Assembly (NCBI GenBank): GCA_015178975.1
Contig: WHVD01000004.1
Coordinates: 248,001-312,000, forward strand
Reading direction: 5' to 3'
DNA from: Hysterangium stoloniferum
Taxonomy: Eukaryota; Basidiomycota; Agaricomycetes; Hysterangiales; Hysterangiaceae
DNA: 64,000 nucleotides
The notes beneath the pieces are model-generated. The model did not search any database. It had not been told where the DNA came from and was given only the letters and a program-made list of their open reading frames with translations. The position numbers and the translations under genes were made by a program. This document shows positions 1,357-64,000 of this stretch, piece after piece. Positions within the stretch are counted from its first letter, which is position 1. Every line of letters starts with the position of its first letter.

Positions 1357-3129
1357 CTATACGGCCAATCCGCTAGCTGTCCGCCCACCGTCGGAAAATT
1401 CACTAGGCTGAGACCGATTTTCCCCCAAAAACCTTTTCTCATATACACGAACCGCAACACGACTTCCCAATCCGGAGTCGGTGGACGGACGGTAGCCCCT
1501 AATGGAAACATATATCAACCCACATAACCACAAGGCTAGCAATGTATAAGCCCCAATGACGAATCCATTTGAGCGAATCCGACCGGACATTGGATATGCC
1601 ACGGGGTAGGAAATATTTGATACACTGGATAGTAAACCAATTCCCGCCGTCATGTGTGCAACACCGAGCCATATTTGCTCTGCGATATTTTCAAGACTTG
1701 GCTGGGAAAGGTTCACCCTGTTGCCATCGACGAAGGTGACATTGTACCCTAGCTGCTTTACCAGTATTGACCCGCTCTCAAAGGTGTGGTTCACAACGCT
1801 CCCATTGGAAATGCCGGCAAGTACAGCGGAAAGAGGGTCCGCAATATGTACCGGGGCGTCAGGGGTGACGTTCTTTTGAAATGATGCGTAGGTCCCCTCC
1901 TCTCCAGATAATAATGCACTTCCGAGTGAGAAACTCGATTGACACATGACCATACCCGTGGTCTCTACAGTTCCGTTGTTGGTTTGAAGGAATATATAAG
2001 CTGTGGCGTCGGAGTCGGGACCAGAGAAAGCTGTGGAGATCGATGGGTATGTGCAATAGCTATATGTGACGTTTGCATTTCCATAAGAGACCTTTACATC
2101 CAAAGCTTGGTCCCCAACGAGAGGGAGAGAGTTGTTGCAGAACATTGGGAAGAGAGTGGTATCTTGTTCGACATCTGTTGTAGTGTCGTCGGATAATGGT
2201 GCGCAGCCCCCTTGAAGTCGTAATCCTGGCAACCTGACATTCACGTCATCGATGTAGCCAGAAAAAAAGAAGTCATTGAGATCTTCCATTCCATCCCGAC
2301 TGTATACACTGAACTCGTAGGGATTAAATATGGATAGACCGGTGGCCCATGACCCAAGTCCTAACCCTATCTGTGTGTCCTGGTCTACATTATGGAGCAC
2401 CTGCGGAGAAAATGCAAATGGGGTGAACGTGTCGTCTACCGCCGTCACATTGACGAGTCCCACAGGATAAGCACGCGAAAGCATTTCTGGCGTAACAAGG
2501 GCAACCATGCACGTGAATCCAAACACGAAGAATATTAGGGAAACACGGAACCTCTTCCGGATTATGGTAATCACAGCACGTGCGAATCCGAGGGGACGAG
2601 ACCATGTGCAGTCATTCATCCAGAAGAGCTCATCGGGAGTGCGAGGAGCTGTGTGAGCCCGCTGAATCGCGGAAACACCAACTCTGGCGAGGTAGAAGGC
2701 GGTGATAGGCACGTGAGCTTGGGCGAAGAAAGTGAGCATTGAGCCCGGCAGGACGTCGTATCGCCAACGTATCACCAAATCACTTCCATGTGGAGGGGGT
2801 CGTTTTCGGCTGCCTTCTCGAGGAGAAAAATGGTTGCTACAATATAGCAGATCCATATGCCTAAAACTATGAGACTATTAGGGTACAGACCCTCTTCCCC
2901 TTCCTGCAGAGGGTATGGTTTAGATGACGGCCCGCTGCTTGATAACCGGGTAGCTTGCTAAAACCCCAAGTATGCATAGTTAGCAGATACATAGGAGATA
3001 ATTTAGATCAGACTTACACTGCACTGTGCGTTTTGTTCACAGTCCACAGGCAGCCTGAGGGTAGACGTTGACAGTGTATGGTTGTCAGGGTTCATGGCGT
3101 AGGTATGAGAACTGAAGAGCTTGCCCTGT
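1357..3129 (-). pseudogene. Polytopic membrane glycoprotein gene of unknown function, frameshifted by an 11-bp tandem duplication
   Basis: The visible exons are 3129-3018 and 2957-1357, joined by a 60-base intron (GTAAGT donor, TTTTAG acceptor, phase 0). Exon 2 opens with a transmembrane segment (LIVLGIWICYIVATIFLLE) and reaches HMEVIW, where the frame stops. A second frame then runs to the end as a 499-codon ORF. The change of frame coincides with an imperfect 11-bp duplication at 2757-2767 / 2768-2778; dropping one unit gives one continuous frame across it. In the long frame, residues 104-122 and 431-452 are hydrophobic helices. Ten N-glycosylation sequons all lie between them, which fits one large extracytoplasmic loop with the C-terminus inside. 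More exons probably lie upstream (3187-3850). I do not recognise the family. The duplication could be a pseudogenising lesion or an assembly error. Confidence 0.55.
2757..2778. repeat. 11-bp imperfect tandem duplication that shifts the reading frame
   Basis: Two adjacent copies, CGTATCGCCAA and CGTATCACCAA (10 of 11 identical), sit exactly where the upstream and downstream frames of the membrane-protein gene on the minus strand fail to join. Confidence 0.7.
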
Positions 3130-3193
3130 CTACATGGAAGATGTGGTCTATTTGAACGTTTGTGAGTCAAATATCAACTATCATACCTGTCAA

Positions 3194-3850
3194 ACATTTC
3201 AGGAAAAACATCAGAAACGCTCCAGGGAAGGGACATCAGTAAGTAGGTGTTGGGCACTAAGTCGCTTGGGTCCCTGAGGGGGCAACTTTGAATATAGCAG
3301 ACCAAATTCTAGTTAGCATGCCGCATCGTTGAGAATGAATTTTTGGTACATATAGAATGAACCAAAAGAAGATAATTCCAACATTACATCACCTCAAAGA
3401 AGCTGCGGCTCACGCAAGAGAACTCGTGCTGACCCAAATGACGATCATTATACATGTTCCAAATGAAACGTTGAGCTCGATTTTATCAAGTTGTTCTGGG
3501 GTACCCGTATTGTAACCTGACAACATTTCAGGAAGAACGTCAGAAACGCTCCAGGGAAGGGACATCGGTAAATAGGTGTTGGGCACTAACTCGCTTGGGT
3601 CCCTGAGGCGGCAACTTTGAATATAGCAGACCAAATTCTAGTTAGCACGCTGCATCGTTGAGAATGAATTTCTGGTACATATAGAATGACCCGAAAGAAG
3701 ATAATTCCAACGTTACATCACCTCAAAGAAGCTGCGGCTCGCGCAAGAGAAGTCGTGCTGACCCAAATGACGATCATTATGCATGTTCCAAATGAAACGC
3801 TGAGGTCGATTTTATCAAGTTGTTCTGGCGTGCCCGGGCGGTAACCTGCC
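3194..3850. repeat. 339-bp tandem duplication upstream of the membrane-protein gene, probably duplicated exons
   Basis: Unit A (3194-3532) and unit B (3533-3850) are nearly identical apart from scattered substitutions; both begin with ACATTTCAGGAA. On the minus strand they carry a frame reading SVSFGTCIMIVIWV (a hydrophobic helix) and another reading LVCYIQSC, then LRDPS, then SLPWSVSDV and PEM. The exon nearest the gene (3308-3187) has a TAACTAG acceptor and a GTATGA donor and can be joined to the exon ending at 3129. In the outer unit the matching donor reads GC rather than GT. The most likely reading is a tandem duplication of one or two exons; a promoter duplication cannot be excluded. 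Confidence 0.5.
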
Positions 3851-6193
3851 AATTATTGCCACTCGGTTTGTCTACCGTCAGATCAGGAAAATTGCAGGGA
3901 CGTGAAAGTATCTCTACATCATCTCCAGCACGGTACCCAGGTACCCCGGCTGTGCCACCCAAGGAACCTAGACTGATATCAAGACTGATATCACAGCTAA
4001 AGGGGTTGGGGTGTGTCCCCCTTACGCCGAAATATGCGGCGATCACTCAAGACGCTAAGAGCATTATATTGCAGATCCCGCTTTGGTTATTGGTTTTTAT
4101 TTGATAAATGAAATTCACCAAATATAGAGTAAGTTTGCTCACGTTTGGTCAGGATGCGTAAGTTGACCAGACTGGACACCACCACGGCTCGAAGAGCCCA
4201 CCTGTTACGTCCATATTTATAAGCAAGTTAGCCATAGTGTACATGTGTGTAGCCCTGAGCTGTCCCCCTTCGTTGCGGTGCCCCTCCCCCCCATCATTGA
4301 TAATTCTGCGAAAATTGGGACGCTCAGGTAATTGAGATAACAAAAAGTTTCTTACTAGTCGACGCCGTGGGAGACCTCCTTTCAGCGCGTCACTGGCGTC
4401 ACTGCCCTCTTACCACATCACCATCCGTCATCACGGCGTTGACTTCGGCACATCTCGCGTTCCAGCCTTCCTGAAGGCCCCACGTGGCGCGTTTTGTAGC
4501 GGTATTATATTTTAGTTATTATTATATGTATACTATATGCCATATTTATTATTTACTTATATATACACATATTGATGTTAAAAGTATAATTGAGCCAGAC
4601 ATCACCCAATCAAAGTCGGTGTTTCCCTCCAAACGCGTGTCGTCGTCGACAGTGAGCTGTATGGCATTCAAAAATTTGACATAAATTCAAATATATTTAT
4701 TTATTTATATAAATAAGATACATATAATTCAGGTATCATAGCATTTAACAAATAAATAAATCTAAACTACAACTGTCAAGAACTAGTTAAATCTATGTAC
4801 TCACAATGATGTTAATCGTTTATTCTACCACCAGTGAGCCTGGTGTAAACATCATGAAAGTTTGAAAGATTCGGAATTATAGCTTAGATATGGTGATTGC
4901 AGTGGTTCTCACTCTGATGAGAGATTATGGCCGCGTTCGTACAACAGTATATGCCAAGTCTGATTGAGGTTGTGGGGGATCGGCGGTCACTGCCCTTTCT
5001 AGATTTCGAAGCTGAATAGTTACAATAATGTACACAACCATGGTGTGGCATTTATAGACTAAGCCGGGGAAACAGCTGTCTTCTAGAAGTGATTGAGCAA
5101 CACATGAACTGAGGCCCCTGACTCCTATTTGTTCTTTTTTAAGATACCTGAGGAGTCCTAGTATATGCGGTGGGGCTTGAATTGACTTACCCAAACACCT
5201 CATGGGCAAAGTGTAGGTTTGCGGTTAATCAGTGGACAGAACACTTGACATTAAGTGCAAGAGGGCCAAACGACAGTACGCATGATGGATTAGTTTGTTC
5301 CAAAATGAAACTCCGAGCTCAATATTTTTCTGAGGCACCGTGAATTACCTCGCAAAAATTGCGGTTACACACTTGAAACACTGAAAACAAATCTGCCGAA
5401 AGCACTGGCTTCCCTGAAGTTGGAGGCAACTTTGGATGCTTAGTAATCAATCGATAAGATTAAATATGGAATTAAGTCAAAGCAGAAGGAAACTTTAACC
5501 TCCGTGAATTCCCAAGCGGTGGAAAATCTGAGTTGGGGATTTGTTCATTTACAACCCTTTTTAGATAAATTGTCTTCTATAATTCATGTAATTAAATTTC
5601 ATTTTATTATTTTTAATTGACACCTGAATCTGCGTGACTGCCAGTGGTTGGCTACTATGTAGGAGTGCACCTCGCCACTTCTTTAGACGGGCGCTTAACT
5701 GCGGAATTGGGTCGTAGCGTAGCCCCGAAATATGCGGACGTACAAAATATTATATTGCAAGATCCGGCTTTGGTTATTGGTCTTTATATGATAAATGAAA
5801 TTCACCAAACGTATAGTTCAGACTCAAGGGATAGTAGATGGTAGGATACCAAAGGACACCACGACCGTGCGGGACCAAGGACCCAAGATCTAATTCTTGA
5901 GACTTGAATACAAAAATACCCGCTGTGGCATCCTCACGAAAAATTATTCAACAGGAAGGATAAATCTTCAAATCAATCCTCGCAACCCTTTCAATCGGAC
6001 GAAAATCTGCAGGACTTGAAAGCACATGGGGACACGATAGTCATAGATGGGTGAGGTACGCATATCATGATAATTGCAATGCATACAGCATGAGATGGGA
6101 GTCTGGTCCCTCCATAGAAAATATATGGCAACATGCCACCAGCTGTCGCCGCTCTCAAATCCCCCCCCTCTACTATATCGGTGCCAATGATAT
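3851..6193. other. Gene-poor region with two diverged copies of a segment
   Basis: About 3960-4120 and 5680-5830 share diverged sequence, including GAAATATGCGG, TATATTGCA and TGATAAATGAAATTCACCAAA. About 5295-5360 resembles 3786-3850. The plus strand of the second copy reads PKYADVQNIILQDPALVIG, but the first copy is frameshifted relative to it. This suggests an old duplication of the whole 3.2-4.1 kb interval. I find no intact gene here; 4480-4760 is strongly AT-rich. Confidence 0.4.
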
Positions 6194-6634
6194 TTATTTC
6201 TTGGCTTTTGTTGTCTTTTCGACCTCAACAATGTTGAGACCTTGGTGAGACCGAGTCAGAACCAGACATCACAACGGGAGCATGAGGTCTACACACCTGG
6301 AGGGAGACTCTGTTGGAGCTTGGCTGCCTTTTCGGCGTCGTCTACAACCAATGTGTAGAGATAACGCGAGCACCGGACCTTGAACTTTGTGCGTTGCTTA
6401 ACGACACCTGAAGCCAAACGAATGCGGGTCTTCTTTATCCGGGCAGCTGATAGTGATTGATTGAAGAAATCGGTGTGTGAGTTAATCGTGAAGCACAACG
6501 AGTGATACAAACTTACAGCGTGCGTCTGGGCGCGATGCGGCTTGAATGAGTGCCTTGATATCCTGCAGTTCCTTGGCCTGTAAATGATATCATAAGCTGG
6601 AGAATCGAGTTGAGTTACTTTTCTGACGGACCAT
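6194..6634 (-). CDS. RPL38: 60S ribosomal protein eL38, four exons
   Basis: Predicted exons are 6634-6632 (the ATG alone), 6577-6517, 6446-6297 and 6240-6194. They sum to 261 bases, or 86 residues plus stop, the usual eL38 size. The protein starts [15 protein letters not shown], then DARSARIKKT, then the family hallmark [20 protein letters not shown] and [13 protein letters not shown]. All junctions keep phase and introns are 50-70 bases. An intron directly after the start codon is common in fungal ribosomal protein genes; here its donor is GTCCGT, so the start is the least certain part. The product is a small component of the large ribosomal subunit. It is the only clearly intact housekeeping gene in the window and seems undisturbed by nearby transposons. 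Confidence 0.9.
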
Positions 6635-8009
6635 TTGTGAAGATGTAGAGGATGGGTGTGGTCGACTTGTGTAATCTGAACCTTAAACTTGGGAAACTAT
6701 AATGATTACCTAATCACATCCCACGATATCCTAGCTAAATACTTCTCCACTTGTATTGGGCTACTTACTTTCTTATTGTTCAGTACATTCTGATGCATGG
6801 AATAATCTGTGATATCGGAGTTCGCTCCACATGGCCACTATACCATTGATAACATGCTGTCACTGGAAATTGAACTTACTAAATGATGTCTCGGTGTGGA
6901 TTCACGATAACATCACTGCCTTAATCAATCACGATATTTCGAAGTCTATCGCCACAATAAATACTAGTCCATTATGCCTGTTCGCCAAGGGTTTCCTCAC
7001 ATAGCGTGACGAGACAGCGGTAGAGGAAGAAATATGAAAAGGAGATTATCCATGTAGTTCATGAGAGGGTGGCCCTAGTACTCATAAATGAAAGATGGCC
7101 ACATCGATCTCAGAGAACCTATCATAATGCCCTTTAAGTCTATCCCGCACCTGTAGTGGAAACGAGGAATTTTTTGAGTTACGAGTTCTCGCAAGAGAGC
7201 AACTTACACTAAGCAGCAATTCTACACAAAACAATCCCAATTACGAAAAAGGGAAGAGCGTAGAGATAATAAGAGTTTCATTATTACGGTAGTATTACGG
7301 CACTGCAGCAGTTGAAATTTTAACAATAAATCCTACCATTTCGTGGATCAGGCTTGAGACTGAAATTTAGAACAGTAACTAGTATACGTCACTATTGCGA
7401 GGCTTGAATTAAAGTTCTAAAAAGCAGTTTGAAGACATTACACACCACTCAGTTGATGCCTGAGAAGTCAATGCGTGTTTGTCCTCCACGCAGGTCAAAT
7501 TATAACAGCCGGATTAGAGTATACATCATCCATGGCCTTTAACAGATTCCAGATGAAGAAAAGGTGTATTTTATTGGACAGCATCCTCCATTCTATCTCG
7601 AGAACCAATCCCAGGCGCAACGGCACCCCTGGTATACGTAACGCCTGGCATATAGAAGGATCGCCGATTGGTCGACTCGACGCTCATGCCATCTACTGCT
7701 CTTCCACGACGGCATTTGGCGTTAACCACCAAGACCAGCGATGGTAGTTGTAGAAGGATCAGGTAAAGAATCGAACAATTGCCAGTGTGACGACCGAAAT
7801 CGAAGCATTCGAAACTAATATTTAGCCACAGTGGCAATAGACTGACCGGAAATAATGAGGGGAATTTAGTTCAACGAAAAAACGGCTAATTTATATGTGA
7901 AACAAAAAGCCCATGTTTGTACAACAACAAAGAAGTCATTTGTGACAGGTGGTAAAGCCGGGCGCCTGGCCTCCGGGTCCCAGACGTCGGCGTCAGGTTC
8001 GCTTACAAC
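6635..8009. other. Intergenic, no gene supported
   Basis: Frames at 7475-7837 on both strands have no recognisable motif and lack splice support. Nothing repetitive is visible until the element remnant that begins near 8010 (TAATCGGACACATCC). Confidence 0.4.
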
Positions 8010-23035: not shown

Positions 23036-23853
23036 TGTTAGGATACACACACAGGGTGGGTCTCATGAGAAACCCACGGGATATCCGGTAGGACTTGGCT
23101 TCAGCTTATAGGCTGCACCCTCGCTAGATCGTGTTGTCCAATTTCGAACAGGTGGACGGGAATCCCAGGGAGTCCAGGTGGGGTTCGTGGGTCGTAGGTT
23201 GTAAGTCAGAGGTTGTGAGTCGTGAGTCAAGATAGTTGAGAGAGATAGATGTGCCGGAGCCTGTGGGCTCTGACTAGTGTGAGCGATGTGAATCAAGCAA
23301 GGGTTTAGAGTGGGAAAATGGATTAGATTACTGGGGGGAATCTAAGCTAATTTTCTGACTGGATTGTATGTACAACATCTGCCAGTTTATATAGACCGTG
23401 GAGTGAATAACATACCAAATCCAGTAATGATGAAATGAAACTAACAAAACATAAAACGGGAATAATAAACACCAAGTTTGGTGTTAGGAATGGGACGGAA
23501 CGGAGCAGAGTCTGAATCGTGACAAAGCATAACCCATAACGGGAAACAGAGCGGGAGTGGAGTCCTAATCATGACAGGTCATTTGACCAAAACGGGAACG
23601 GGGCTCAGTTAGAGTGGTGATGGGATTCTGAGCGGGGTCCAGTGACTGATGGGTGGGACGAAGATGGACATAGACAGAGACGGAGTCCGGGGGAAGTCTG
23701 GTGACTGATATGTGTTGTAATGAGGTCGAATGTAATGAGTCTTGATGTATGGAGTCTGGGCGGGAAATCCTATAAACAGACATTTGGTGCGTGTGGGGCG
23801 TGGGGGCGTACGGGTTAGTGCCCGGAGTCCGGCGGGATTGTCCAGTCGTAACA
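23036..23853 (-). repeat. 3' LTR of chromodomain Gypsy element, copy 1
   Basis: 818 bp, TGTTAGGATAC to GTCGTAACA on the plus strand. It is read on the minus strand because the coding polymerase region and the polypurine tract are on that strand. It contains the motif shared by many LTRs here (23091-23120). The same LTR bounds copy 2 at 57435. Confidence 0.75.
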
Positions 23854-23867
23854 GTACCCTCCCTTTA
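23854..23867 (-). other. Polypurine tract of Gypsy copy 1
   Basis: The minus strand reads AAAGGGAGGGTAC directly before the LTR start TGTTACGACTGG. Copy 2 keeps the same tract at 57436-57449. It sets the element orientation as minus. Confidence 0.75.
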
Positions 23868-24063
23868 TGCCGAAGTCCCAAAGAGGCTCTAGGCCTAGAT
23901 AAGGTTCTTGTCAGCTACGCGCATGTGTCAAAAGTCATGTCAGTTACACATATGTGTCAAAGAGTCAGGTGATCTGGAAGGTAAAGTTCAAATGCGATGA
24001 GCCTATATAAAAATTGAAAAAAATAGAGATTTTTTCTTCTTCATTACCCCCATCATCGACAAC

Positions 24064-25065
24064 ATGGGACCAAAGCCCACACCGCATAAGCCTATTGGGC
24101 CCTCCACAGGCAATCAGTACCGGGTCCTGCTCACCGCTGCCCAACTCTTAGCGCAGTGGGACGAGCAACATCGACAGCATGAAGAGGTGGAGCGAGAAGC
24201 CCGGGAGGTCGAGGAGGCCCTGAATAGGGAATACCAGGCAGCGGTGGCCACAGAGGAAGAGGCCACACGACAGAAGCAGAGGGATGAGGAGGAGGCTGCA
24301 TGGGTGGCCATGGAGAAGGCCAAGGCAGTGGCAGAGAAAGCCTGGGTGGCTACGGAGAGAGCTGCAGTAGTTGCGGGCAAGGTAAGTCCCAACATTTCGA
24401 CTTGTCGTGCGTTTCTGACTTGGCATTTTCAGTGCAAAGCAACAGAAGTCGAATCGGAGTCCAAGGGGGAGCCCAAAAGCCCCAACAAGGTGAGTCTCAG
24501 GTCCGTGGGAATACTGTGGAGCTAACCGTATCAACAGAAAGCAAGGAAGGCGGCACCAGTCTGCCTACTGACTCGGAATGACCCGCGGTGTTCCGGTTGT
24601 AATGACTGGAACACTGAGTGTAATCGGAAGTCCTCGGAAGTCCAGCCGGGGCCCAGGGTGTTACCAGTGCATGCACCTCAAGGCGAGGTGCTCACTCGTT
24701 CACAAGCAAGCCGCGTGATCTGGTAGTACACGGGAGAATGGCGGGTCAGACGGGTACTCTGGTCTGGACGAAGCCTTGGGATGGATCGCTGAGGGAATTG
24801 AAGCCCAAAACGAGTTGCTCTGGAAGAGCAACAAGGTCAGCCTCATCATGCCCAATGATCTCCGCGCACTCCATGGGGACCATTTTAAGTTCCTGATGGA
24901 GTATGCCGGCTTTGTGTATGAGAATCCAGAGGCGGGAGTTCTGAGGAAGCCGGTACAGATGAGGAAGAGGTGCCCGCGGAGATAGCGGAGCTACCCGAGG
25001 AGATGGCTGAGGCAGGGAAACAGGAGGTGGGGAAAAAAGACAGTCCCATCAATGTAGATGAATAG
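24064..25065 (+). pseudogene. Antisense accessory ORF of the Gypsy element, two introns, coiled coil plus Zn2Cys6-like cluster
   Basis: The gene lies between the integrase/chromodomain and the 3' LTR and runs opposite to pol. Exon 1 (24064-24381) starts MGPKPTPHKPIGPSTGNQ and encodes a long E/A/R-rich coiled coil (EVEREAREVEEALNREYQ). Introns at 24382-24432 (GTAAGT to TTTCAG) and 24490-24537 (GTGAGT to AACAG) are both phase 0. Exon 3 carries CSGCNDWNTEC and CYQCMHLKARC, two C-X2-C-X6-C halves as in fungal Zn(II)2Cys6 DNA-binding domains. A helical tail follows (IAEGIEAQNELL) and the frame ends DSPINVDE. A +1 shift between the two cysteine halves and another before the tail break this copy. 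Copy 2 at 57647-58601 has the same introns. The protein may bind DNA; that is inference. Confidence 0.7.
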
Positions 25066-25256
25066 AATAATAAAACTTGATAATGATTTTGAACATATAA
25101 AAGTAAAGCATGAAAAAACATAAGAATCAAAGTCCACGGAGAATCCGCTTAAGGACTTGAAAGACATGTCAGAACCTGTAAAAGCAAAGAGAGACATAGA
25201 GCGACAGGGAATAATGAAAATGAGTCCAAACATAACACGGGGTCCACGGAGTGTGG

Positions 25257-25860
25257 TCAGAAAGATGATAATGGTCCAGGTTTGAGTGGGTAAGCTGTAT
25301 GAAAGTCAGTAATGATTTCTGTGGCATTACCGAGTTCCATGGCCAAAATCCATGAGGTTTCTTCATCAGTGCCCTTGTAACCCACCCACTTAACCAAGTA
25401 AAGCAGTTTACAAGTGCGTCGACGCTTATCAATTTTTGAATCTAAAATCTGTGAGATTTCAAACTCGGGTTCTCCATCAATAATGACCGGAGGAGGTGGA
25501 GATTGCATGTGATCCGGGATAGTGTTAGCAGTACAAGGTTCTAACATAGAAACATGAAATACCGGGTATACCATGCGCATGCTATCCAGAAGCCGTATGG
25601 TCCAAGAAACTGAACCTACTTGTGCGATAATTTCAAATGGACCTAAATATTTTTCAGCAAGCTTTTTTGATGGACGGGTAGTCCTAAAGAATTGAGCTTT
25701 GACATAAACACGGTCACCTATCTTGAAGTTGGGTGGTGGAATCCGGTGTTTGTCCACTGAATGTTGGTATTGCTCTTGGGTGGACTTAATTGCAGTCTGG
25801 AGTTCCTCGTGGAGCTCATGGAGGTCTGTGGTGAACTCTTGAGCACGAGCAGAGGTGAGA
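25257..25860 (-). pseudogene. Chromodomain Gypsy integrase C-terminus, 5'-truncated
   Basis: The minus strand reads HRIPPPNFKIGDRVYVKAQF and EKYLGPFEIIAQVGSVSW, the integrase C-terminal GPF/GPY-like module. HPVFHVSMLEP-type sequence follows, then a chromodomain (PEFEISQILDSKI, LLYLVKWVGYKGTDEETSW). Chromodomains guide integration of chromoviruses to marked chromatin. Homology to copy 2 (59400-58704) runs to about 25880, where unrelated sequence begins, so the rest of pol is lost. It faces the antisense ORF tail to tail, about 190 bp away. Confidence 0.8.
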
Positions 25861-25880
25861 TTTCATTCTGGATGTACTTG

Positions 25881-56735: not shown

Positions 56736-57435
56736 TCAAAGATGTCTTCCCTCTCCAGCTTTGTCTATGTGTCGTGCTAAGAGGAGAGAGCTGTATGGTT
56801 GGGTAGGGGGGGGGGGGCTCTCCACGTATGCGTGGGAAGACTTGCCGCTCGGGAGGGTGGCTCCGACTAGTGTGAGCGGTGTAATTCAAGTAGGGGTTTA
56901 AAGCGGAAAATGTATTAGATTACTGGGGGGAATCTAAGCCGATTTTCTGACTGGATTACATCTGCCAGTTTAAATAGACTGTGGAGTGAATGTCATACCG
57001 AATCCAGTAATGATGAAACGAAATGAGCAAAACATAAAATGGGAATAGTAAGCACCAATTTGGTGTTAGGAACGGGATGGAACGGAGCGGAGTCCAAATT
57101 GTGACAATTCATAAACCATAATGGGAAATGGAGCGGGAGCGGAGTCTGAATTGTGACAGGTCATTTGACTAAAATGGGAATGGGGCTCTGTTAGAGAGGT
57201 GATGGGTTTTACGAGCAGGGTCCAGTGACTGACATGTGGGATGAGGTCAGATATAGACAGAGATGGAGTCCAGTGGGTTTTCTGGTGACTGAAACACAAC
57301 GTAACAAAGACGAATGTAGACAAGTCTGATGTACAGAGTCCGGCAGGAATTCCAGTAAACTGATAATGGGTGCATATAGGGTGCGGGTGTGTATAAGTTA
57401 GTGCCCGGAGTCTGGTGGGATTTCCAGTTATAACA
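56736..57435 (-). repeat. 3' LTR of chromodomain Gypsy element, copy 2
   Basis: Ends CCAGTTATAACA at 57435. 56862-57435 aligns with 23268-23853 of copy 1. The outer end is uncertain because 56736-56862 does not match the first 230 bases of the other LTR. A run of ten or more G lies near 56806. Confidence 0.65.
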
Positions 57436-57449
57436 GTACCCTCCCTTTA
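57436..57449 (-). other. Polypurine tract of Gypsy copy 2
   Basis: The minus strand reads AAAGGGAGGGTAC directly before the LTR, identical to copy 1. Confidence 0.75.
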
Positions 57450-57646
57450 TGCCGAAGTCCCAAAGAGGCTCTAGACCTCAATAAGGTTCTTGTCAGCTAT
57501 GTGCATGTGTCAAAAGTCACGTTGGTTACACATATGTGTCAGGGAGTCATGTGATCTGGAAGGTAAGGTTCAAACGCGACGAGCCTATATATAAATTTGA
57601 AAAAATAGAAATTTCTTCTTTTTCATTACCCTCATCTTCGACATAA

Positions 57647-58601
57647 TGGGACAAAACCAATGCCATGCAGAGCAATGCCGACCGCTGGGCCTTCCACGGA
57701 CAATCTTCATTGGGCGCCACTGACCGCTGCCCAAATTTTGGCACAGCAGGAGGAGCAATGATGACAATGGGAGGAGGCCAAAAAAGAAGCCAGGGAGGTC
57801 GAGGAGGCCCTGGATAGGGAGTACCAGGCAGCTTTGGCCACAGAGAAAGCGGCAGAGGAGAAGAGGAAGAGGGATGAGGAAGAGGCTGCGTGGGTTGCTG
57901 TGGAGAAAGCCCGGGCGGCTGTGGAGAGGGCCGCGGTAGTCATGGGCAAGGTAAGTCCCTGTTCAACTGGTCATTTTTATTTATTTTTAACTTGGCATTT
58001 TCAGCGCAAGGTGACAGAAGTTGAGTCAGAGTCCGAGGGGGAGCTGGAGAGCCCCCAAAAGGTAAGCCTCGGGTCCGTGGGAGCTTCCGGGGAACTAACC
58101 ATATCAACAGAAAGCAAGGAAGGCGGCACCAGTCCGTCTTCTGATATGGAACAATCCGTGGTGTTCCGGTTCCAATGACTGGAACACAGAATGCACTCGA
58201 AAGTCTGGGTGGGGACTGGGGTGCTACCAATGTGTGCACCTCAATGCTCACTTGTCCATGAGCAACCCATGGGATCCAGGGCACGGGATGTTAGCGGGAC
58301 AGATGGGATGTCCAGGTTGGACAACGTATTGGGGCGGATTGCTGAGGGCATAGAGGCCCAGAATGAGTTGCTCCGAAGAAGCAACAAGGTCCAAGTTGTG
58401 GTAGCGAATGAGCTCCGTGGGCTCCACTCAGAATTTTGGAAGTTCCTAGTGGAGTTTGGCAGATATATCTATGAGGAGCCACAAGCTGGGAGTTCCGAGG
58501 ATGCCGGGTCAGATGAGGATGGGGTGCCCACAGAGGTAGCAGAGCTTCCTCAGGAGATGGCTGAGGTTGGGCAGAGGCATAGCCCCATAAATGTAGATTG
58601 A
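57647..58601 (+). pseudogene. Antisense accessory ORF of the Gypsy element, copy 2
   Basis: Same position and structure as 24064-25065. The start region and first third are frameshifted with stops, but the coiled coil (EREVEEALDREYQ-type) is readable. Introns at 57951-58004 and 58062-58110 keep donor, acceptor and phase. The cysteine cluster is CSGSNDWNTEC (second Cys changed to Ser), nine residues, then CYQCVHLNAH with the last Cys lost. The tail is the best preserved part: MSRLDNVLGRIAEGIEAQNE, then ANELRGLHSEFWKFLVEFG, then an acidic end HSPINVD. Shared introns in a retroelement make sense only if the gene is antisense to the genomic RNA. Confidence 0.7.
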
Positions 58602-58703
58602 ATAATATAAAAGTTTAATAATTTTTTGAAAATGAAAATAAGACATGAAAAACATAAGAAATCAAAGTCCGTGGGAAAACCACTTAAGGACTTGAAAAAC
58701 ATG

Positions 58704-59400
58704 TCAGAACCTGTAAAAGCAAAGAGAGACATAGGGTGACAGGGAATAATGAAAATGAGTCCAAACGTAACACAGGGTCCACAGAGTGTGGTCAGAGAGA
58801 CAATAGTGGTCCAGGTTTGAGTGGGTAAGCTGTATGAAAGTCAGTAATGATTTCCGTGGCATTACTGAGTTCTGTGGCCAAAATCCATGAGGTTTCTTCA
58901 TCGGTGCTCTCATAACCCGCCCACTTGACCAAGTAAAGCAGTTTACAAGTGCGTCGATGCTTGTCAATTTTCGAATCTAAAATTTACGAGATTTCAAACT
59001 CGGGTTCTCCGTCAATAATAACCAGAGGAGGTGGAGATTACATGTGATCTGGGATAGTGTTAGCAGTACAAGGTTCTAACATAGAAACATGAAATACCGG
59101 GTGTACCATGTGTATGCTATCCAGAAGCCATAGAGTCCAAGAGACTGAACCTACTTGTGTGATAATTTCAAATGGACCTAAATATTTTTCAGCAAGCTTT
59201 TTTGATGGATGGGTAGTCCGGAAGAATTGAGCTTTGACAAAAACATGATTGCCAGTCTTGAAGTTGGGTGGTGGGATCCAGTATTTGTCGGCTGAATGTT
59301 GGTATTGCTCTTGGGTGGACATTATTGCAGTCCAGAGTTCCTCGTGGAGCTCATGGAGGTCCGTGGTGAACTCTTGAGCACGGGCGGGGGTGGGATTTCA
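58704..59400 (-). pseudogene. Gypsy integrase C-terminus and chromodomain, copy 2
   Basis: Reads YWIPPPNFKTGNHVFVKAQF, EKYLGPFEIITQVGSVSW, HPVFHVSMLEP, then a stop at about 59040 before the chromodomain (LLYLVKWAGYESTDEETSWI-like). A further stop near 59397 follows the HPE codons, where homologues read on. The chromodomain tryptophans are kept. Confidence 0.75.
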
Positions 59401-60289
59401 TTCTGGATGTACTGTAATATTTGGATTATATCCTTTATTTGCAAAGAATGGGGAAACACCAGTAGTGGCTGAAGGTGCATTGTTGTAAGCAAACTCTGCA
59501 AGTGGTAACAAGGATTTCCAATTGTCCTGTTGGTAATTGCAATATATGCGGAGATATTGTTCCAATGTCTGATTGATGCATTCAGTTTGTGTAATGTATT
59601 AGCCTTATTTTAATATTATTTTCTGGAAAAAGGAGTCCAATGCTCTATCAAAGTGTGCAAATACTCAATTCACTACAAGGTAAAATAATTTAAGTATTTG
59701 ATATTAATCAGTGGCAGCCTTAATAGACTTAGAACCCCTGAAGTCAAGAGTTTACTTGAATATATGCACCCTACTTCACAAAGAAGGTTTTGAGAGCTGC
59801 TTGTGCAAGCTTGTTCTTTTTCTGTGATAACAACTACTAAAATAAGAATAACAATTTACTGATTCCAAAGCTAGATTTAACTTCAATGCTAGCTAGTTTA
59901 TATATATTTTATACTATTTGTCAAACAGTAAAAATATTTATAAACGGGTCAAAAGATTAGATATAGAATAAAACACTATTTGACTAATATATGCTTTATT
60001 TACACTAACCTACAAGGTCTACTGTGATATTAACTTATCAGGATCTTAATGTAGTCTTAAGGATTCTGCAAGGATATTCTCAGTATTTGTTTATGTGAAT
60101 ATGCTTTACTGATTCACAATAAATGAACAAAGGAACGGGATTATTTGCAATGTAATAAACAGTCAAATTACTCAACTAGAGGTGACTGAAATCTTAAACT
60201 ACAAATAACAATGTAGAGAAAACTAATAATCAAATACTCAATTAAGAGATGACTATAGTATAAGATTATTTATATATTATTAGTTGATA

Positions 60290-60530
60290 ACCAACAGCTC
60301 TAACTGAAGTGGAAATAATATATAAAAGATAGCCAACTATTCAATTAAGAAGTGGCAAGGGGGAACAAAAGTCAACAACTCAGATTGAGGTGACAGGGGA
60401 ACAGCAGATCAGTCAACAGCTCAGATTGAGGTGACAAGGGATCTGATTGGGCCAACAACTCTGATAGAGGTGGCAAGGGTTTCCAACAGCTCAGATAGAG
60501 GTGGAATTAGATGTCCAACTGCCCAGATAG
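60290..60530. repeat. Minisatellite of about 30 bp, roughly seven copies
   Basis: Variants of CAACAGCTCAGATTGAGGTG followed by ACAAGGG recur about every 25-45 bases, clearest between 60370 and 60530. Located inside the hAT-like element. Confidence 0.65.
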
Positions 60531-60984
60531 GGGTGGAGTAGCCTGCTTGCTGCAGTGACACACACAGATGTGGTGGGTTGATGTGATGATATGATTGATT
60601 TTTTTATTCAAGGCTGGAGCTGAGCTCCTTATATACATTTTAGTCTGAGACATTTAGAAGATTCTAGAAGATTTAATGATGTCATTCTGGGAGGAGTGAT
60701 GTCATTTAGAATTTTCTAGAATTTTCTAGAGCATTGTGGAAGGTTCTAACTACTTCTAAGACACTATAGAATATTCTTGGCATAATGGAACATTGTAGAA
60801 TTTTATAGAATATTCTACAATATTCTATCTAATATTAGTACCTATTAACTAATGTTCCATTGGAAGCCACTGGAATGTTCCAGAGAGTTTCCTGTTTTTG
60901 TTGCAGTAGCATATATGATGACATAATGCTCTCGCGCCTGTGCGCGCGCATGACACCCTTCGCGTCTTGTGACTGTCACGCGTT

Positions 60985-61140
60985 GTGACAGTTGCGCGCC
61001 TGTGTGACCGTTGCGCGCCTCTGTGACCGTTGCGCGCCTCTGTGACCGTTGCGCGCCTCTGTGACCGTTGCGCGCCTCTGTGACCGTTGCGCGCCTCTGT
61101 GACCGTTGCGCGCCTCTGTGACCGTTGCGCGCCTTTGTGA
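60985..61140. repeat. 19-bp GC-rich satellite, about eight copies
   Basis: The unit TGTGACCGTTGCGCGCCTC is repeated almost without change, in an AT-rich element. Related TGTGACAGTT and TGTGACGATT motifs continue on both sides (to about 61190). The repetitive minus-strand frames here (GHRGAQRSQRRATVTEARN) are only its translation. Confidence 0.9.
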
Positions 61141-61605
61141 CAACTGTCACCTGTTATGACGGTGGTCACTCGTTGTGACGATTTTCCCGCGCGCCGTGTA
61201 ATAAACGCCAGGCCGGTTTTATATTATTATATAATTATTATATTTACTTTTAGTTAGTTATAAATATAATATTTTATTATAAAAATATATATATTTCACC
61301 TTGATAATGCGCGAGTATTTCAAATCGCGTTTTGTCAGCGTCGGAGTTTGAAATATCATGTGAATGTCACATGATTACTCGCGTATTGTGAATAAGCGCT
61401 GAGTCGCCGACATATTAATCAAAAAGAATAAAAAGTAGAAATTCAATTACTTGCTCAATTTATTAGATAAAAATACAAAATAAATTGTATAAATTCAGGA
61501 TAAATCAAACAAATATTGTACAATTTAATCGTCGCAATATAATTACATTTGAATATTTGTTTTCGCAATTTGTTAGGGGAAATTGTTTAAAAAATTGGAA
61601 AAAAC

Positions 61606-62417
61606 TTAGAAATACATAACAGTTTGTCTGTTGCCTTCCGGGTGATGTCCAGATGTGAAATGTAATGTTATGTCCAAGGATTTCCCAAGGGATCTAAAGA
61701 AGTGAGATATGAACTCTGATCCTCGATCGGAAGTCACATGGGATGGAACTCCATGCTTGGAAAATACATGGATAATGAAAAGTTCCGCTAACTGCATGGA
61801 CGTAATGTATCATAAGTAGGGATAAATATACCATGTTTTGAGAATCTGTCAACAACAACTAGAATGGGGGAAAAGCCTTCAGAATCTGGTAGGTGTTCAA
61901 TGAAATCCATAGAGATAGAATTCCACAGATGTTCTGGTACCGGGAGTTGTCTCAAAAGGCTGTATGGCTTGTGTCACTGAGATTTTGAGCGGGGACAAGT
62001 AGTACAAGATTTACAATAGTGCTTAATGAATCCACGGAGTCCGGGCCAAGTGTATTCTCTTCTTATCAATGATAGAGTTTTGTTGTACCTGAAATGTCCT
62101 GAGAGTGGATGATCATGTTTATACTGAAGGATCCTGAGGTGGAGGCCATTGGAGTCTGGTACATAGATTTGATCGTCAAGTCTAATGAAACCATGCTGAT
62201 CAAGAGACCACCGGGGTTGATTGGGGTCCACGGGATTGTCAAGGTGAGCTTTAGCTATTGGGTCTAGCGGAATTGCCGATAGAATATCTTGATGTAACTT
62301 CTCAATACCCATAATGATAATTCCACGGACAATGGGATTGATGAGGAAAGTTGCGTGGACTGATGCAGTAAGTTGTTGATTCGTGAAAATAGGTTTCAGG
62401 TTGTGTGGGTTTACCAT
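61606..62417 (-). pseudogene. Gypsy integrase, zinc-binding and catalytic core, copy 2
   Basis: The frame 62417-61974 carries the HHCC zinc module: HDHPLSGHFRYNKTLSLIRR, then FIKHYCKSCTTC. After a stop the core follows in pieces: [11 protein letters not shown] (first Asp), SDRGSEFISHFF (second Asp) and HHPEGNRQTE (Glu). The transposon at 59591-61619 separates the Glu segment from the rest. Stop codons make it inactive. Confidence 0.85.
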
Positions 62418-62964
62418 GGCATAGTCGTTGCTCCCCTCTTTAGGATAGACATCCCATCGTCTAGTTAAAGCGTCAGGTTTGCCACCGAGATGGCTGGGTT
62501 GAAATCAGATAATCATGTTGAAAGCAGATAGATATTCAGACCAGTGGGCCTGCCGGCGGGTCAAAAGGTTTGTGGTAGAAAAGTATTCCAGGTTTTTGTG
62601 ATCTGTTACAACATCAATAGGAGTTCCCGAGCCTTCCAAATAGTGTCGCCATGCTTTGAAAGCTGAAAAGATTGCCAGGAGTTCCTTATCATGAATGTCA
62701 TAGTTGAGCTCTGCTCCGGTAAAAGTCTAGGACAGAAAAGCCATGGGGTGGACTTCTCCATCGGAGTCCTAGGTAGACAGAATGGCTCCAAGTGCATAGT
62801 CCAAGGTGTCCATTTCGACAATGAGCAGGAAGTCCAGTTTCCAATGTGACAGAATAGGGAGCTGAAGAAAAAGAATTTTTTAAAGATTGAAAGCTATTTG
62901 ACACTTATCATTAAAATTCCACAGAGTATCCTTATGCATAAGATGGGTAAGGGGAACTGTGATG
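62418..62964 (-). pseudogene. Gypsy RNase H and connection domain, copy 2
   Basis: Frames read VPLTHLMHKDTLWNFND, then a segment of VETDTSDYALGAILS type (catalytic Asp), [24 protein letters not shown] and [20 protein letters not shown] (DHKNL motif). Several single stops and frame changes occur, for example after MAFLS and near 62508. Confidence 0.75.
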
Positions 62965-63996
62965 TCAGAATCCACGGATAAACCATCTGTAAAAATTGGC
63001 AAAGCCGAGGAAGGATTGTATATCTTTAACTTTTTGGGGTTCAGGCCAATCTTTGATGACTTGTACTTTAGTTTTGTCCATGCAGAGTCCATTGGGTCCC
63101 ATGATGAAACCCAGGTATTCCATGGAGTCCGTGTCAAAAGTACATTTTTTACCATTCATGAATAAACCATGTTGTCTGAGTCTCCAGAGAACTTCACGGA
63201 CTTGTTTGTCATGTTCTGCGGGATTCTCGGAGTAGATAAGAATGTTGTCCAAGTAAACAATAATGCATACATCGAGCATGTCAGAGAAAATGTCATTGAT
63301 AAAACACTGAAAAACAGACAGCGCATTGGTGAGTCCAAAGGGCATCACCAACCACTGGAAGGCCCCATAACGGGTTCTAAAAGTGGTTTTCCATTCATCA
63401 CCCATGGTGATCTGGACCAAGTGATAGGCATGTTTGAGATCTATTTTGGTGTAAATCCAGGCATTCCACGGAGCATCGAGCAGATCAGATATAAGTGGGA
63501 GTGGATACTTATCCTTTTTGGTGACAGCATTGAGTCCTCTAAAATCAACACATCTGACAAACAGAACAGGTTCTCCAAAAGGAGACTTTGAGGGTCTGAT
63601 AAAACCTATGGACAAATGTTCATCCAGGAAATCGTGGATTGTGGACAGTTCCGTCGACGAGAGCGGGTAAATATGTCCTAGGGGTGGCTGGGTGCCATCT
63701 TCGAGATTGATTTTTAAGTCGCATTCTCTGTGGGGCGGAAGCCGGTCAGCTTTTCCCTTGCTAAAAACATCTGCAAAGTCATGATATTTCTCTGGGATGC
63801 CTTCTAGGTCAGCGGCTTGCTCAGATTCAGATACTGGGGTTGAAAAACGTCCAGTTGCTTCATCAATTTTTAAGTTGATAGTGAATGCCTGGGACCCATC
63901 CATTTTTGAAGCCCTAATAAAAGCTGCAGCATTAATCAGAGAAATAGATGGAGGTGCTGTGGGTTCCGGGGAAGCCATGGGTGCCATAGGGATCAC
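62965..63996 (-). CDS. Gypsy protease end and reverse transcriptase, copy 2, 3'-truncated by decay
   Basis: 344-codon frame that may continue beyond the window. Reverse transcriptase begins around IPEKYHDFADVFSKGKAD. The conserved blocks are VDFRGLNAVTKKDKYPLP, TKIDLKHAYHLVQI (first catalytic Asp), WLVMPFGLTNALSVFQ and VYLDNILIYS, where the second Asp of the YxDD box is Asn. KDIQSFLGFANFYRWFI ends the thumb-like part. This domain copies the element RNA. The YLDN variant may be inactivating or family-typical. Confidence 0.85.
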   Translation of the reverse strand: MIPMAPMASPEPTAPPSISLINAAAFIRASKMDGSQAFTINLKIDEATGRFSTPVSESEQAADLEGIPEKYHDFADVFSKGKADRLPPHRECDLKINLEDGTQPPLGHIYPLSSTELSTIHDFLDEHLSIGFIRPSKSPFGEPVLFVRCVDFRGLNAVTKKDKYPLPLISDLLDAPWNAWIYTKIDLKHAYHLVQITMGDEWKTTFRTRYGAFQWLVMPFGLTNALSVFQCFINDIFSDMLDVCIIVYLDNILIYSENPAEHDKQVREVLWRLRQHGLFMNGKKCTFDTDSMEYLGFIMGPNGLCMDKTKVQVIKDWPEPQKVKDIQSFLGFANFYRWFIRGF

Positions 63997-64000
63997 AGGA

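Follow-up and report, generated by a model that had tools for sequence, protein, structure and literature searches.

A two-intron antisense gene in a chromovirus of Hysterangium stoloniferum: purifying selection and apparent exchange between element lineages

Why should a Ty3/Gypsy retrotransposon carry, on the strand opposite to gag-pol, a gene with two introns? The question is raised by positions 24064–25065 of a 64,000-nucleotide stretch of the basidiomycete Hysterangium stoloniferum (contig WHVD01000004.1, positions 248,001 to 312,000 of the forward strand; hereafter the window), part of a 111-Mb assembly of 554 contigs. As judged from sequence, this is a decayed copy of a gene belonging to an abundant Ty3/Gypsy chromovirus of this fungus. 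The window holds two copies, W1 (24064–25065) and W2, and as both are broken a working gene is not demonstrable from the window alone; open copies elsewhere in the genome supply the evidence. The protein that they encode is under purifying selection, the gene appears to have moved between element lineages as a block, and its product is a candidate nuclear regulator of the element itself.

A conserved antisense gene in a young chromovirus

L055 is a young, full-length copy of the element. Its two 822-bp long terminal repeats (LTRs) are 100% identical, its termini read TGTTA...TAACA and it is flanked by a 5-bp target duplication, GCTGA. An LTR at 456–1277 is followed by the antisense gene on the plus strand (1487–2469) and by pol on the minus strand (2684–6595). 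The stop-to-stop frames of gag and pol span 438 and 1304 amino acids, pol comprising protease, reverse transcriptase, RNase H, integrase, SH3 and chromodomain (Pfam: RVT_1, 1.4e-36; RNaseH, 4e-35; rve, 2.6e-10; Chromo, 2.6e-6) and gag matching Retrotrans_gag (3.1e-14). L055 thus has the make-up of a chromovirus, with reverse transcriptase, RNase H, integrase and chromodomain in pol, gag upstream and LTRs. The antisense gene is open, encodes 294 amino acids and lies between pol and the 3' LTR on the opposite strand, the position of the antisense genes known as aORF-3R.

The gene is a regular part of this family. It adjoins the chromodomain in 25 of the 26 loci whose chromodomain is 100% identical to that of L055 (one of the 25 was checked for the 3' half of the gene only), and the remaining locus starts 613 bases from its contig end. 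Presence in most copies and conservation like that of the element's own proteins are further marks of aORF-3R genes; here dN/dS, the ratio of nonsynonymous to synonymous divergence, is 0.19–0.23 for the gene and 0.17–0.32 for pol. Over 118 exon 3 residues, 22 loci are 100% identical to L055. Other copies form an older class: LTR pairs of at least 600 bp were recovered in 8 of 20 long loci of this class and are 87–93% identical, indicating that those copies are older. Searched at the DNA level, the window gene yielded 733 first-look candidates; the best 40 were scored and all 40 matched. Exon 3, searched as protein, yielded 1158 candidates, and among the best 150, which were scored, 134 had no stop in the matched stretch. 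These counts refer to best-scored subsets and are not copy numbers.

Forty-eight copies were aligned, comprising a first set of 40 (38 loci, W1 and W2) and eight added later. The antisense open reading frame (ORF) is open from ATG to stop in nine of them, the recent L055 included: six of the first set and three of the later set, the latter nearly identical to one another. Intron 1 has its GT donor and AG acceptor in all 48 copies, intron 2 its GT donor in 46 and its AG acceptor in 48; every copy of either intron also contains a match to the YTRAY branch-point motif. Exon length is a multiple of three in 32, 39 and 31 of the first 40 copies for exons 1, 2 and 3, respectively. Intron 1 measures 49–56 nt in these copies and reaches 59 nt in the eight added later. 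Intron 2 tells against a simple reading, being 48 nt and so a multiple of three in most copies; its length is not such a multiple in 14 of 48, as compared with 33 of 48 for intron 1. Both introns are 49 nt in young copies, so that the full protein requires splicing. The conservation of intron position and phase that the first-pass annotation had claimed from the two window copies is borne out in the 48 examined, none of which is intronless; this also fits its suggestion that the introns persist because only the antisense transcript is spliced. In W1 and L055 a TATATA box precedes the ATG by 60 nt. Both window copies and 19 of 20 loci have the motif at the equivalent site; L028 lacks it because its 5' end is lost. 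The gene is accordingly predicted to have a TATA promoter of its own, lying between pol and the 3' LTR.

Selection on the antisense ORF was assessed by dN/dS, a check that the first-pass annotation had proposed. Comparison of a young copy, L048, with six open old copies gave dN of 0.165–0.193, dS of 0.79–0.96 and dN/dS of 0.185–0.229, with bootstrap limits of 0.12–0.31 in four of the six pairs. Divergence at codon positions 1, 2 and 3 was 0.15–0.17, 0.13–0.16 and 0.39–0.46. The cysteine module described below is the most constrained region (0.07–0.14), followed by exon 2 with its nuclear localization signal (NLS)-like stretch (0.08–0.17), the tail (0.10–0.22) and exon 1 (0.16–0.24), while the linker and helix are the least constrained (0.34–0.48). 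In neutral simulations about six stops were expected, and only 0.0025 and 0.0005 of 2000 runs each had none. Among the old copies themselves dN/dS was 0.19–0.46 (15 pairs), in keeping with added decay after insertion. Most differences between old copies are transitions (72:7 and 64:4 relative to transversions in two pairs) and replacements of arginine by Q, W, C or H, a pattern suggestive of CpG-type decay in copies that have been silenced.

Apparent exchange of the gene between lineages

The antisense gene occurs in several allele classes, of which A, in older copies, and B, that of L055, could be compared most fully; further classes are present in W2, L051–L054, L064, L067 and L068. A scan of L055 against four older copies, made in 100-bp steps, gave identities mostly of 0.88–1.0, dropping to 0.61–0.84 over the antisense gene; two gag windows and one LTR block were also lower (0.77–0.89). 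At 20-bp resolution the divergence starts at about 1463–1487, near the start codon, and ends at about 2523–2545, some 55–75 nt past the stop (six copies, one of which aligned poorly upstream).

The contrast holds across the family. Between L055 and 19 class A loci, divergence was 0.249–0.274 in the gene, as compared with 0.049–0.098 in the promoter (18 of 19 loci usable) and 0.044–0.070 at the pol end (16 of 19). Between the two subfamilies dS was 0.79–0.96 in the gene and 0.139–0.177 in pol (six of seven copies tried; L026, with only 72 codons, was dropped). Where both were measured in the same copies, gene and pol dS were 0.87 and 0.16 in L020, and 0.91 and 0.18 in L021. Differences fixed between A and B number 156 in 980 columns of the gene (39 A and 4 B copies), whereas with 19 A and 7 B copies there are 4 in 819 columns of the LTR, 2 in 163 of the promoter and 3 in the last 46 nt before the ATG. 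The seven B copies are what remained of ten candidates after the removal of L071, L074 and L076, whose first 44 nt of gene sequence do not mark them clearly as B; L072 and L075 have no usable LTR, and with all ten candidates three LTR columns are fixed.

Trees of 27 copies disagree in the same way. The gene data reject the LTR grouping (approximately unbiased (AU) test, p 0.004), and the LTR data reject two gene-tree groupings (AU p below 1e-6 each), while not separating a constraint that places A and B together from one that joins A with group II. The plain reading of these alignments is that the antisense gene has moved between element lineages as a block, most simply perhaps by template switching between co-packaged RNAs.

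The low LTR block in the scan, 200 bp at L055:556–755, is 77–86% identical between L055 and the four old copies, most of the LTR being above 89%. It was considered as a segment travelling with the gene class and rejected, since it varies independently of class: L066 has a B gene, yet its block is 0.064 from that of L020 (A) and 0.157 from that of L055 (B), and in the six clear B copies other than L055 the block is nearer the A mean in four and nearer L055 in two. In the gag region, L055:6756–6855 and 7456–7555 show identities of 0.81–0.89, below their surroundings; L010 and L027 have tandem repeats in the corresponding far part of the element.

The window copies

The two copies in the window, with strands given for each feature, are laid out as follows.

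23036..25878, minus strand: whole remnant of the W1 element, 83.6% identical to L055 by blastn, truncated inside pol at 25878
23036..23853, minus strand: W1 LTR (the 3' LTR relative to gag-pol, which runs on the minus strand), from start and end motifs and 88.5% blastn identity to the L055 LTR
23854..23867, minus strand: purine-rich stretch beside the LTR, read by eye and also present in L055, a putative polypurine tract
24004..24013, plus strand: TATA box, 60 nt 5' of the antisense ATG of W1, read from the sequence and conserved across loci
24064..24381, plus strand: W1 exon 1, with its ATG at 24064, an N-terminal segment and a charged helical (coiled-coil-like) region
24382..24432, plus strand: W1 intron 1, 51 nt, phase 0
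24433..24489, plus strand: W1 exon 2, a basic/acidic segment and the start of a bipartite-NLS-like stretch (by eye)
24490..24537, plus strand: W1 intron 2, 48 nt, phase 0
24538..25065, plus strand: W1 exon 3, cysteine region, helical segment and acidic tail, frame broken
24589..24621, plus strand: W1 first cysteine half, CX2CX6C
24659..24691, plus strand: W1 second cysteine half, CX2CX6C, its last C preceded by K-x-R, out of frame with the first half
25257..25757, minus strand: C-terminal end of W1 pol, Tf2-like SH3 and chromodomain (Pfam SH3_Tf2-1, 6.3e-19; Chromo, 6.3e-7)
56859..59590, minus strand: first part of the W2 element by blastn to L055, resuming at 61622–64000 past an insertion of about 2 kb
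about 57646..58601, plus strand: W2 antisense gene, broken, of a different allele class (C)

The W1 gene sits between the opposite-strand SH3/chromodomain ORF and the LTR, and the arrangement in W2 is identical, in agreement with the first-pass annotation, which had placed an antisense two-intron gene at a fixed site in both chromovirus copies. It had also read a spliced product with both cysteine halves. Such a product is predicted from the open copies elsewhere in the genome and not from the window copies: in W1 the exon 3 frame is lost, leaving the cysteine halves in different frames and followed by a stop, and W2 has frame losses and stops.

The pol of W2 is interrupted at 59590–61622 by some 2 kb of unrelated sequence. 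Element coordinates on its two sides share 6 bp, a pattern like that left by an insertion that duplicates its target. Elsewhere, a second antisense-gene remnant lies near the first in L009 (8377–9009, inverted) and L011 (7823–8763, direct), a sign of nested or tandem copies of the element. L055 has, beside its 5' LTR, a short palindromic stretch (7716–7737) with no obvious tRNA primer site by eye, tRNA sites not having been searched; self-priming as in Tf1-like elements is possible.

The encoded protein and its proposed role

After splicing the predicted protein would have some 294–312 residues, in the order N-terminal charged helical region, bipartite-NLS-like stretch KRKA...KKARK, cysteine module, helical segment and acidic tail. 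The module, CX2CX6C-X9-CX2CX6C, is in a single frame in the nine open copies, all outside the window. Its six cysteines are retained in 47, 47, 48, 47, 48 and 48 of 48 copies, compared with a mean majority fraction of 0.85 in exon 3, and the young L048 protein has exactly six cysteines, all within the module. For the Zn2Cys6 (Gal4-type) domain, PF00172, we take the pattern to be six cysteines spaced CX2CX6C-X5-16-CX2CX6-8C, which the module fits. Gal4-type clusters have basic residues in their first half; here they are in the second half and missing from the first. The label of Zn2Cys6-like cluster given by the first-pass annotation is thus borne out in spacing and in the six conserved cysteines and not in the placing of basic residues or in the Pfam score given below; the module may be an independent or permuted cluster. 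Elsewhere in the genome the Zn_clus model matches 42 places, and at several (G000:C56, C115) ordinary matches are grouped in twos or threes, close together in a single open frame.

We favour, with somewhat better than even confidence, the reading that the gene encodes an accessory nuclear regulator, read against gag-pol and spliced twice, that acts in trans on the DNA or chromatin of its own element. An antisense transcript from the gene's predicted TATA promoter would be spliced twice to give the protein, which would enter the nucleus through the NLS-like stretch and self-associate through the exon 1 region, its cysteine module presumably binding zinc and nucleic acid. Two widely differing allele classes have the cysteine module and almost all of the LTR sequence in common, and so probably bind a common DNA target and differ in their partner surfaces, the partner being perhaps a host factor. 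The effect on the element is more likely positive or anti-silencing, a guess drawn from the divergence patterns.

Several observations count against this regulator. Pfam Zn_clus scores were 8.7 and 8.0 bits, far below the cut-off of 21, and one protein was unlisted even at E 10. No solved relative was found in the PDB, the best match being a weak similarity of the helical segment to the talin-1 dimerisation helix (E 0.039). Nor was an allele-specific LTR target found, given that only those four LTR columns are fixed between the classes.

Antisense accessory genes as such are not new. Zhao et al. reportedly described, in 2011, Boty-like retrotransposons of Botrytis with an antisense gene, brtn. 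The Boty elements have gag, RT, IN and CHROMO domains in addition to brtn (PMC4227169), which is placed between pol and the 3' LTR (PMC7264820). By description, then, Boty resembles the Hysterangium element as a fungal chromovirus with an additional antisense gene at the same position; introns or a cysteine module are not mentioned for brtn in the parts of the literature consulted, and protein searches with the Hysterangium product returned nothing from Botrytis. In plants, the aORF-3R genes of Grande (gene23), RIRE2 and Retand are likewise antisense; gene23 is driven by a promoter of its own and its product is nuclear (PMC7264820), and the TRP28 protein of Retand is predicted to bind DNA (PMC11963269). 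Retand belongs to a non-chromovirus lineage, the word intron is absent from PMC11963269, and the plant descriptions, as far as seen, include neither a six-cysteine module nor cassette exchange. The antisense extra ORFs that the first-pass annotation had mentioned for plant Gypsy elements are real (Grande, Retand); the fungal chromovirus precedent, brtn, it had overlooked. In the open-access literature we found no antisense gene with introns, or with a cysteine module, described for a fungal LTR element: the kind of gene is known, while its introns, cysteine module and exchange as a cassette are without a report found there.

The main alternative, unlikely in our judgement, is that the protein represses its own element, lowering LTR transcription and limiting copy number as HBZ does in HTLV-1. 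Position, antisense direction and splicing resemble those of hbz, which lies near the 3' LTR and encodes a nuclear regulator that reduces 5' LTR transcription (PMC10186651, in the parts consulted), and a DNA-binding-like module is conserved. The likeness has limits: hbz has a TATA-less promoter inside the 3' LTR, whereas the Hysterangium TATA box is inside the element, about 190 nt from the LTR edge; and hbz encodes a bZIP protein, whereas the Hysterangium gene encodes a cysteine module and Pfam scans of its proteins gave no bZIP domain. Moreover, A and B have near-identical LTRs and the same module, so it is not obvious how a swap of the gene would release a new wave from the old repressor.

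Capture of a host gene, with some copies only having acquired a cellular zinc-cluster regulator in antisense, is improbable. Two spliceosomal introns, a TATA promoter and an NLS-like stretch do recall a cellular gene, and an old capture may have occurred. The first-pass annotation would have given up an element gene had it been private to one lineage or absent from intact copies; neither was seen, since the gene stands at the 25 loci with identical chromodomains and in all 40 best-scored matches to a 2-kb query around it, although such scoring favours copies that have the gene. Protein searches (7993 candidates scored at E ≤0.001, 98 at E ≤1 and 153 at E ≤10) gave no homologue outside H. stoloniferum and returned only P0001 (BU17DRAFT_80596), on the same contig as the window; they depend on shared five-residue words and annotated proteins, so that masked transposons of other fungi would escape them.

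Still less probable is that the antisense RNA is itself the active agent, pairing with the 3' end of the genomic RNA so as to feed RNA silencing or block translation. It would be complementary to the sense RNA, and roles of this sort are discussed for plant elements in the part of PMC7264820 consulted, but as an only role it is at odds with the low dN/dS, the codon periodicity and the conserved splice sites and cysteines, which need a protein; an RNA role could be additional.

Least credible of all is that the divergence of the gene between subfamilies reflects decay or a mutational hot spot at this place, through CpG loss for instance, and no exchange: old copies do have many changes of the C-to-T type, and within class A the gene is somewhat more diverged than the pol end (0.085–0.152 and 0.051–0.081, L020 against the others), but in four A copies compared with B there are 99–105 transversions in the 983-bp gene and 5–8 in the pol end, only 4–7 transversions separate class A genes (two pairs), divergence outside CpG-like contexts is 0.177–0.193 in the gene, 0.017–0.027 in the pol end and 0.049–0.062 in the promoter (the four A copies), and gene and LTR trees conflict in both directions; as transversions and non-CpG sites show the same contrast of gene and pol, decay is not the cause.

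We know of no established role for the antisense accessory genes of LTR retrotransposons. The Hysterangium case offers a fungus, an intact young family and a clear protein under selection, with two introns that mark the transcript strand unambiguously. It is also a natural experiment, in which two versions of the gene on nearly the same backbone allow a direct comparison of target and partner. If an accessory regulator is indeed exchanged as a cassette, retrotransposons would evolve by swapping regulators, much as phages swap immunity modules. It is a further and doubtful step, which we nevertheless put forward, that the cassette serves compatibility or escape, new waves of amplification succeeding when they acquire by template switching a different, deeply divergent allele of the trans-acting regulator, one with partner-binding surfaces that evade a host silencing factor or the protein of older copies, with diversity kept by frequency-dependent selection. 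Were this so, a eukaryotic retrotransposon would possess something akin to phage immunity or anti-silencing modules.
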